A stretch of 64,000 nucleotides of DNA from Magnetococcales bacterium. GTDB taxonomy: Bacteria; Pseudomonadota; Magnetococcia; Magnetococcales; JADGBX01. Below are positions 34,562 to 39,741 of the stretch, piece by piece. The position numbers were made by a program, and so were the translations under genes. The notes beneath the pieces are model-generated. The model was not told the DNA's origin. It saw only the letters and a program-made list of their open reading frames with translations, and did no database searches. The stretch's first letter is position 1. Each line of letters starts with the position of its first letter. The stretch is taken from contig JADGBX010000004.1 in assembly GCA_015231265.1 (NCBI GenBank), forward strand, positions 1 through 64,000, written 5' to 3'.

Positions 34562-36283
34562 ATGGTTACCGAAGCGAAAACACCCCATCCGGCTCAAAAC
34601 GACGACACGCTTGGAGAGATTCTCCAGCTCCTGAAAGAGATCCCGGAGATCAGCCATGACGGCTTCTCCAATATTACGGATCATATGGGAAATTTCTCCA
34701 GCAGTTTTGCAACGGGTGCCACACGATCGATCTCCATTACGGAGCTGATCGAGTCGGATGGCGATATGGGGTTGACGCCCCTGCGTAATGACCTCCGCAA
34801 GGTAAACCGTGAGATCAGCGGCGCCTTCAAGTCCCTGGATACTCTTGTCGAACAGCAGCAAGGATTTCTTACCCTCATCAACAAGACACTGGAATGGGCA
34901 CTCACTCTGGAGCAGGACGCCTTTCTGCCACCCATCGTCGATCAGATCAAAGCTCAAAGCGGCGAACGCCTGGAAATCCAGACGCTCGGAGCGATCATCG
35001 ACAGCCTGATTCAACAGACCCGCCCCTTGATCCATGATGTAATCATGGCGAGTGAAGAGGCGACGGATGTGATGAACCATCTTTCCCGCCGCGTTACTGC
35101 CGACCTGGAGTCATCACGTCATGGACTCACAGGAATCAAGAAAAAAACCTCCCAGGGGACACGCACTCTTACCCGTATCGTCAAGGATGTCGGTTCTATT
35201 TGCAGTGCAATGCACGACCGTTCCCGCAAGGTGAATGATATCGTGTTTCAGATGGTGCAATCGATGCAGTATGACGACATCACGGCGCAGCGTGTACAAC
35301 ATGCGCTCCAAGCTCTGGAGACAGGTCGGGATAAACTGACTACAGAGAAACCGAGCACCAGAGACATCCAATGGTTTACCGTCGCATCGACCATTATCAT
35401 CAACCAACTCCATGCCACACGTGACGATGCAGTCAAAGCGATCAGTGACAGCCGGGAACAGCTTGATCTGATTGCAGAACTGGCCCGTGAACAGGTCAGT
35501 GACGTGAGCACTATCCGGAAACACGGTGTTGCTTTCAGGCAAGAGACGGCAGATGTCACCTATCATCTGACCTCAATGGGCCATTTCAGTGCATTTAACG
35601 AACGCTTCTCCAATGATGTGCTCAGCGATCTGACAAAGGCTGAGAACGCAATTTTTCAGGCTAAACGGGCGATGAACGTCCTGGCCATGACCAGCAACCG
35701 ATTGGAAAAATTGGCCTCTTCCCTGAAAACACAAGGGAGTGAACGGCTGGAAGTACTGACGCGCAACATCATCGCTCTGGCGCAGAAAATACAGATTGAA
35801 GGCCCAAAACAGGTGGCAGCTTTCAACAAAGCTTCTGTCAAACTTCATAGCATCAGCATGACTTTTTCGGACAAGGTAACTCCCAAGCTGATGCGCACCA
35901 ACAGCCTGTTACGACGCGTTCCACTCACCACCAAACAGCTGGATAGCAACAACGAAGATCTGATCTCGGAGATGAATGAGACTCTTGGTGATGCACAGGC
36001 TACGGCTATTCAGATCATGCTCCTGGTCACAGAGATGGATTTCCACGAGGAGATTCATGACCATGTGGAAACTGCAACGCGCCTACTCAATAGACTTCTG
36101 GAAGATCTTGGTATTTCCCCAGGCTCTCTGAGCGACAAGGAGTTGGCAGAATTGACAAATGAGTTTGAGGATCTCGCCAACATGTACACCATGGAGAGCG
36201 AACGGCGGGTTCACAACGCTGCGCTTGATCAAGGCGATGGGCATGCTGATGAGGACGATGATGATGGCATAGAGCTGTTCTGA
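34562..36283 (+). CDS. Cytoplasmic coiled-coil protein, MCP-/CheZ-like
   Basis: Long helical protein without an obvious TM; VFQMVQSMQYDDITAQRVQHALQALE resembles CheZ-type helix motifs. Second acidic helix LLVTEMDFHEEIHDHVETATRLLNRLLEDLG. Start at 34562 (ATGGTTACCGAAGCG) is inferred. Confidence 0.6.
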   Translation: MVTEAKTPHPAQNDDTLGEILQLLKEIPEISHDGFSNITDHMGNFSSSFATGATRSISITELIESDGDMGLTPLRNDLRKVNREISGAFKSLDTLVEQQQGFLTLINKTLEWALTLEQDAFLPPIVDQIKAQSGERLEIQTLGAIIDSLIQQTRPLIHDVIMASEEATDVMNHLSRRVTADLESSRHGLTGIKKKTSQGTRTLTRIVKDVGSICSAMHDRSRKVNDIVFQMVQSMQYDDITAQRVQHALQALETGRDKLTTEKPSTRDIQWFTVASTIIINQLHATRDDAVKAISDSREQLDLIAELAREQVSDVSTIRKHGVAFRQETADVTYHLTSMGHFSAFNERFSNDVLSDLTKAENAIFQAKRAMNVLAMTSNRLEKLASSLKTQGSERLEVLTRNIIALAQKIQIEGPKQVAAFNKASVKLHSISMTFSDKVTPKLMRTNSLLRRVPLTTKQLDSNNEDLISEMNETLGDAQATAIQIMLLVTEMDFHEEIHDHVETATRLLNRLLEDLGISPGSLSDKELAELTNEFEDLANMYTMESERRVHNAALDQGDGHADEDDDDGIELF

Positions 36284-38355: not shown

Positions 38356-38769
38356 GATCTGCTAGTGCCTCGTATGAGCTTGACGTATCAAAAAGTAGAC
38401 AGAATTGGTATATCGAACGACCTGTGAGCTGCATCCATCCGCAATTCAACATGGGAAGCGACTCCTCATATGGAGTGGTACACGAATAGTTTGCCGCACA
38501 GTATCCTTAAGAGGATCAGTTCTCTTATTGCTCAACTCTTTTTCGTGCAATAACACGGGTCATTGCGCGTGTATATTGGCATGCACGGAAACGAAGTCCA
38601 CCCCTCCAGGCCATTTTTTTCATTTCATGAGAAACAGGCAACAGCCGTGATAGAGGTGGATGACGGTGGAAATACAGGATGATGACGCTCTTTTCCCAAT
38701 GGTCTGGTGGTCACACATGGTATATTGGTTGGGTGATGACGCTAACGTTCTGCCTTGAAGAGACTCTCC

Positions 38770-39741
38770 ATGCCTCGACCAAAATCAAGGATTACTCAAT
38801 ATACTGTCCAAGACGCCTATCAGTACATTGAACGGGCACTCTCCGGTCAGAGGTTGGAGTTGAAAAAGAAGAATGCAGAAGAGCTTTTCCACGCAATTTC
38901 TCTTGATGATCACGCCCAGGCAGCGTTGCAACTTCAGAACTGGATAGACGATTACATGCCGGAGGCCAACAGGCGCAGAATGCTGGGGTCTCTGCGTCAG
39001 GCTAAGTTCGCAAGAGAGTCAAAAATCGTCAATTTAACGGTAACCAGTGACACTTCACAACATCTTGACCACTTTCAGAAAAAACATGGTCACTCCTCGC
39101 GTAATGAAGCTCTCAATGCTCTTCTCAAAGAACTCGATCGTATCGAGGCACAGCACTCTCCCCCTACACCGGGAGCACCAACTACTGATAAGAGAGCAAT
39201 AGAACCTCAAACCGACTCTCAAGCCACCCAATCCGACCCCAACACTAGAGCAGACAAAACCGCAACACCCTCGCTTCCTCTTTCATCACCCACGCTCTCC
39301 AACAGGAGGACACGACAAGCAGAGCAACATAATCCACAGAGAGAGATCGCACTTATCGCTTTGGAACGCAAACATCAACGGATGTTGATCAGTGCAATTC
39401 TCCTTGTCTTTTTTGCTCTTGCTTTAGGTTACTTCTTCGGAATTGGCAAGCACAGAATTGATCGCATCGCAGAGAAACCGGATCAGCTTTCCATCGTCGA
39501 TCCTGAAGCACTCCTCGATCCCAACAAACGCCCTTTGGTCAGAATCGGCAATGGCAACACCTGGATGCGACTGGTACCACTGGAAGATGCACCGATCTCC
39601 AAAGCCCCCTCGGTTACATCAACACCTCTGATGGAAGTCCCCACACACTCCAAAAAGCCGGGTGAAAACACACTGTTGGAAACAGAGCCTATTACTACTT
39701 TGCAAATGAGCTACACCCTGGATCCGGTATCTGACCCATAG
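38770..39741 (+). CDS. MatP-like ribbon-helix-helix protein with a C-terminal transmembrane segment
   Basis: LQNWIDDYMPEANRRRMLGSLRQAKFARESKIVNLTVTSDTSQHLDHFQKKHGHSSRNEALNALLKELD resembles the MatP four-helix/RHH region. Ser/Thr/Pro-rich linker, then TM MLISAILLVFFALALGYFFGI. Start placed at MPRPKSRITQ. Confidence 0.6.
   Translation: MPRPKSRITQYTVQDAYQYIERALSGQRLELKKKNAEELFHAISLDDHAQAALQLQNWIDDYMPEANRRRMLGSLRQAKFARESKIVNLTVTSDTSQHLDHFQKKHGHSSRNEALNALLKELDRIEAQHSPPTPGAPTTDKRAIEPQTDSQATQSDPNTRADKTATPSLPLSSPTLSNRRTRQAEQHNPQREIALIALERKHQRMLISAILLVFFALALGYFFGIGKHRIDRIAEKPDQLSIVDPEALLDPNKRPLVRIGNGNTWMRLVPLEDAPISKAPSVTSTPLMEVPTHSKKPGENTLLETEPITTLQMSYTLDPVSDP

Follow-up and report, generated by a model that had tools for sequence, protein, structure and literature searches.

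A predicted membrane-anchored member of the MatP superfamily in Magnetococcales

The window analysed here, a stretch of 64,000 nucleotides from a Magnetococcales genome, encodes a 323-amino acid protein that very probably belongs to the MatP superfamily and that carries, behind its MatP-like part, a predicted transmembrane helix of its own. MatP itself is already known; what is new is the membrane-anchored variant of its superfamily. The best reading of the window protein, which we put at about an even chance, is that of a membrane-tethered, site-specific chromosome-organising protein, with organisation or tethering as its main role. Sequence-specific DNA binding, taken as a prediction in its own right, is likely; that the protein acts specifically on the terminus is doubtful.

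The open reading frame starts with the ATG at position 38770 and its stop codon ends at 39741, on the + strand. It is considered a real gene because two other genomes of the same order, G004 and G018, encode alignable homologues (L002 and L003, respectively). The features are as follows.

38655 to 38743, + strand: three direct repeats around GATGACG (at 38655, 38677 and 38731), shortly before the ATG; speculatively, an operator.
38770 to 39741, + strand: gene for the 323-amino acid, predicted membrane-anchored MatP-superfamily protein; L002 and L003 are homologues with this layout.
38770 to 39018, + strand: MatP-like N-terminal helical domain, residues 1–83; a block of pLDDT 85–97 in the full-length AlphaFold2 model, supported by hhalign, Foldseek and the residue table.
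39019 to 39156, + strand: ribbon-helix-helix (RHH), residues 84–129; from the model, and aligning with the RHH of MatP.
39157 to 39333, + strand: Pro/Ser/Thr-rich linker, residues 130–188, predicted disordered; low pLDDT and no secondary structure.
39334 to 39471, + strand: long helix, residues 189–234, which includes the transmembrane helix; from the AlphaFold2 model.
39382 to 39444, + strand: predicted transmembrane helix, residues 205–225, with the N-terminus read as cytoplasmic; from hydropathy and flanking charges.
39445 to 39738, + strand: C-terminal tail, residues 226–323, predicted periplasmic as it comes after the transmembrane helix.

The N-terminal 130 residues contain the WIDDYM...RRRM...LRQAKF region, with LQNWIDDYM starting at residue 55, and the RHH-like segment, which consists of a predicted strand near residues 86–92 and helices 93–106 and 111–129. 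The two helices are modelled with a pLDDT of about 82–93 in the full-length AlphaFold2 monomer, while the strand needs a dimer to form. Beyond the linker, residues 205–225 (MLISAILLVFFALALGYFFGI) make up the most hydrophobic helix of the protein, with a mean Kyte-Doolittle value of 2.54 over 19 residues. Both segments picked out in the preliminary description, the WID region and the hydrophobic helix beyond a Pro/Ser/Thr-rich linker, are present, and a single membrane anchor is supported. The short exterior tail that it added does come after the transmembrane helix, but with 98 amino acids it is not very short, and the corresponding region is longer still (about 145–170 amino acids) in L002 and L003. 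The AlphaFold2 model shows a largely disordered tail with one weak hairpin, and neither the window protein nor these two anchored relatives yielded a sensor domain. The flanking charges that would keep the N-terminus in the cytoplasm are clearest in L003 and ambiguous in the window protein; its N-terminus is taken as cytoplasmic because a DNA-binding domain must be. With high confidence, we regard the protein as a bitopic membrane protein with its N-terminus inside. A Pfam match to MLD (E 9e-5 to 1e-3, 29 residues, below the cut-off) falls on the RHH helices, not on the transmembrane region, and was taken as chance.

As a single sequence searched against Pfam and NCBIfam, the window protein lies below the curated cut-offs of PF06303 and NF003471. 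Its single-sequence profile comparison with MatP is weak, and a PF06303 search of its own genome finds nothing. Profiles were therefore compared on both sides, with an alignment of 18 genuine MatP proteins and a profile, A2, made of three N-domains (those of the window protein, L002 and L003). The three-sequence profile matches the MatP alignment with an hhalign Prob of 83, a P of 8.7e-6 and a score of 38 over 74 columns, which extend from the WID motif across the RHH; the maximum score among 60 column-permuted profiles was 17, and the reversed profile failed. The resemblance to MatP had originally been noticed in the sequence alone, with a failure of HHpred to match MatP or RHH proteins named as the outcome that would tell against it; in the profile comparison MatP is matched, far above the permuted controls. 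A Zetaproteobacterial family of 120-amino acid proteins bridges the two groups, with hhalign values of 98.1% to the window family (102 columns, covering the N-domain and the first part of the RHH) and 97.9% to MatP. Nine of 30 superfamily members match NCBI's MatP model, the best at 5.8e-8, and others reach 3.2e-11. Profile A2 picks up genuine MatP genes in G357 (E 0.004) and G391 (E 0.002); outside the class, it finds 120-amino acid proteins, the named relatives being mostly from Mariprofundaceae/Zetaproteobacteria, with some from Nitrosomonas and Gammaproteobacteria.

The alignments used for folding contained no MatP; that of the N-domain was limited to relatives from Zetaproteobacteria, Nitrosomonas and Gammaproteobacteria. 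In Foldseek searches of the PDB (350,542 chains), the top six matches of the N-domain model and the top eight of the full-length model are all MatP, with non-MatP proteins far behind. The best matches have probabilities of 0.98–1.0 and E-values of 0.015–0.05, which are modest; the TM-score is limited, the model being a monomer in which the orientation of the domains is free. The model supports a MatP fold for the window protein, short of proving it, as AlphaFold has been trained with MatP. Membership of the MatP superfamily is put as high as it is because separate lines of evidence (profiles, controls, bridge and fold) agree.

The class was sampled through 48 genomes of one order, which forms its own class within the phylum. 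L002 and L003 are the clear homologues found by direct search; their N-domains align with 27–31% identity, and both have an N-domain, a long Pro-rich linker, one transmembrane helix and a C-terminal region. The weaker direct matches, L004–L006, are soluble homologues. With A2, a homologue is found in 33 of the 48 genomes (21 of the 27 good ones), a distribution that fits a housekeeping protein of the chromosome and not a mobile one. Most of these homologues are soluble and about 90–250 amino acids long; the full anchored layout occurs in three genomes, from three families, and the anchor is thus confirmed in only three of the 48. Soluble Magnetococcales homologues of group A5 (L019–L035) match the window family over 123 columns (hhalign 98.6%) and, behind the MatP-like domain, seem to have two RHH-like segments in tandem. 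Unlike the window protein from the same class, neither these nor the shorter forms have a transmembrane helix noted, and some of the short forms lack the RHH. Weak homologues also lie inside long open frames of 446–579 amino acids (G013:C89:26480, G022:C310:13371 and G027:C216:4698), which may be further anchored or fused forms. The window's own genome has a second, weak homologue (G000:C20:8329-8601) with one in-frame TGA, possibly a decayed paralogue. A contig scan with the window protein as single query and a viral scan with A2 gave no relative.

MatP, the Ter macrodomain protein, which organises the terminus region of the E. coli chromosome (PF06303 and PF17414, NF003471; PDB entries 3VEA, 3VEB, 4D8J and 7NYW), has the same order of N-terminal helical domain and RHH, and of the whole PDB it is closest to the predicted fold of the window protein. 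The features tied to its known mechanism are mostly missing in the window protein. Trp57 and Arg75 of MatP correspond to Trp58 and Arg76, but of the DNA-contact residues K71, Q72, R75 and R77 (PMC8523169) only R75 is kept; L002 and L003 keep R77 as well. The last 20 residues of MatP serve in tetramerisation and in contacting ZapB (PMC7394560); the C-terminal coiled coil is missing in the window protein, which has the linker, transmembrane helix and tail in its place. In vitro, MatP also attaches to lipid bilayers, possibly through its coiled coil, and was not seen recruiting matS DNA there (PMC6538776).

MukB, the main partner of MatP, is absent from the class, where all matches are weak and short (about 50 residues). 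To our knowledge, ZapB has been described as enteric only. Matches to its family occur in 40 of the 48 class genomes, 21 of them over the cut-off, and the window's own genome has one of 36 bits, though coiled coils give false matches and make this search unreliable. Since such matches occur in the class, own genome included, ZapB cannot be assumed to be absent. They include G000:C222:66024-66272, and the strongest are in G010 and G023 (64 bits).

E. coli has 23 matS sites in 800 kb (PMC3330122). The E. coli matS motif, GTGACRNYGTCAC, is at chance level in the class, with one palindromic site in the window's own genome and 0–3 per class genome, and is not enriched. With the window's own genome split into 459 contigs, the de novo palindrome scan covered 2.3 Mb of the relative G018, for which GC skew puts the origin at about 40 kb of C19 and the terminus at about 590 kb of C18. 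Among gapped palindromes biased to the 0.57 Mb on the terminus side, none in this 2.3-Mb scan is significantly clustered; the matS-like palindrome near the terminus that the preliminary description had proposed to look for did not appear. The first match was a CGTA tandem tract. With duplicates removed, the best terminus bias is 2.2e-4, and a relaxed scan reaches 2.7e-5, not significant given 19,741 tests. The palindromes that are strongly over-represented in G018 are spread genome-wide and resemble the hairpins of terminators. Sites with the density and strict confinement of E. coli matS should have stood out in G018; looser or non-palindromic ones would not.

In the mechanism that we propose, the RHH would dimerise and, together with the helical domain, bind a specific DNA site in the cytoplasm. 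The transmembrane helix would hold the protein in the inner membrane and the flexible linker would let the RHH reach the nucleoid, fixing a locus or region of the chromosome at the membrane, while the tail outside possibly contacts a factor of the envelope or of cell division. The tasks of the MatP coiled coil (tetramerisation, ZapB contact and lipid binding) would fall to anchor and tail, with the membrane link built in, compared with MatP's own binding to lipid bilayers. For Magnetococcales in general, it is possible, if somewhat less than an even chance, that a chromosome region is tethered directly to the membrane by a MatP-superfamily protein with a transmembrane helix and an envelope-side tail, without a ZapB- or MukB-type partner. 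The likeness to ZapT of Caulobacter, a MerR-family protein (PMC7188993), and to the MatP-ZapB-ZapA link is one of proposed role only, that of linking chromosome and division machinery.

The main rival is a membrane-integrated one-component transcription regulator, in which the tail would pick up a signal in the envelope and the MatP-like/RHH part would bind to promoters; we consider it rather unlikely. RHH proteins are commonly transcription regulators, clustered sites are lacking in G018, and the gene itself has three short direct repeats shortly before its start. These repeats are only weakly unusual, as a 7-mer occurs three times in about 1% of the window's 130-bp stretches, and the 13-mer GGNTGATGACGCT has two further exact copies elsewhere in the genome (C155 and C255); they give a weak hint of autoregulation. 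The layout of a cytoplasmic DNA-binding part, one transmembrane helix and a periplasmic part is that of CadC and ToxR, with CadC as a precedent (PMC6320335). The DNA-binding domain of these proteins is a winged helix and not MatP-like/RHH, there is no sign of homology, and the window protein has no match to a winged-helix family in Pfam or NCBIfam, its predicted fold being that of MatP instead. MatP is known as a chromosome organiser, not as a transcription regulator, and a mostly disordered tail with no recognisable sensor domain, here or in the two relatives, also argues against a sensing role. Nor is there a conserved neighbouring target gene. The window gene is flanked by htpG and a polyferredoxin gene, that of G018 by thiD-like and dnaQ-like genes (assigned by reading the sequences), and no neighbourhood is shared among the few contexts examined. 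A 572-amino acid protein encoded at 34565–36283 of the window, adjoining htpG, has no Pfam match.

A tether that holds not the terminus but another locus at the membrane or pole, such as a region close to the origin or a small number of specific sites, would fit the anchor, the weakly conserved recognition residues and the lack of terminus-clustered sites in G018; we regard it as improbable. It is very improbable that the likeness to MatP is generic RHH similarity in an unrelated membrane protein, as the sub-threshold Pfam and NCBIfam results and the little found by single-sequence comparison might suggest, since the match covers the helical domain with its W-I/V-D and IRQRR region and not the RHH alone, the permuted and reversed controls fail, and the closest folds in the PDB are all those of MatP, well ahead of other proteins.

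Returning to the reading as a membrane-tethered chromosome organiser, an anchored distant relative of MatP suggests direct attachment of part of the chromosome to the cell membrane in the little-studied Magnetococcales. It also opens to experiment the idea that a MatP-like protein can tether DNA straight to the membrane. MatP has been stated to occur only in enteric and Vibrio-type bacteria, with the link between terminus and division in other bacteria described as unclear (PMC7188993); this agrees with the mainly gammaproteobacterial distribution assumed in the preliminary description. The relatives in Magnetococcales, Zetaproteobacteria and Nitrosomonas suggest a superfamily that is older and wider than the literature states. 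No paper joining MatP with Magnetococcus or Mariprofundus was found in the open-access literature searched.

A tree of 42 sequences, rooted at the midpoint and with long branches that make its order uncertain, separates MatP and the Zetaproteobacterial, Nitrosomonas and Gammaproteobacterial proteins from the Magnetococcales proteins. The soluble Magnetococcales forms group together (96/90), with the anchored ones at their base. Judging from these sequences, the anchor may be the original state in Magnetococcales and have been lost in the soluble forms, a suggestion weakened by the long branches. The 120-amino acid MatP-like proteins on the other side of the tree (A7, L084–L109), from Mariprofundaceae/Zetaproteobacteria, Nitrosomonas and some Gammaproteobacteria, differ from the window protein in being short (116–146 amino acids) and soluble, with no anchor. 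They reach up to 3.2e-11 against NCBI's MatP model, and their RHH, with a TLSE motif, is closer to that of MatP than the RHH of the window protein is.
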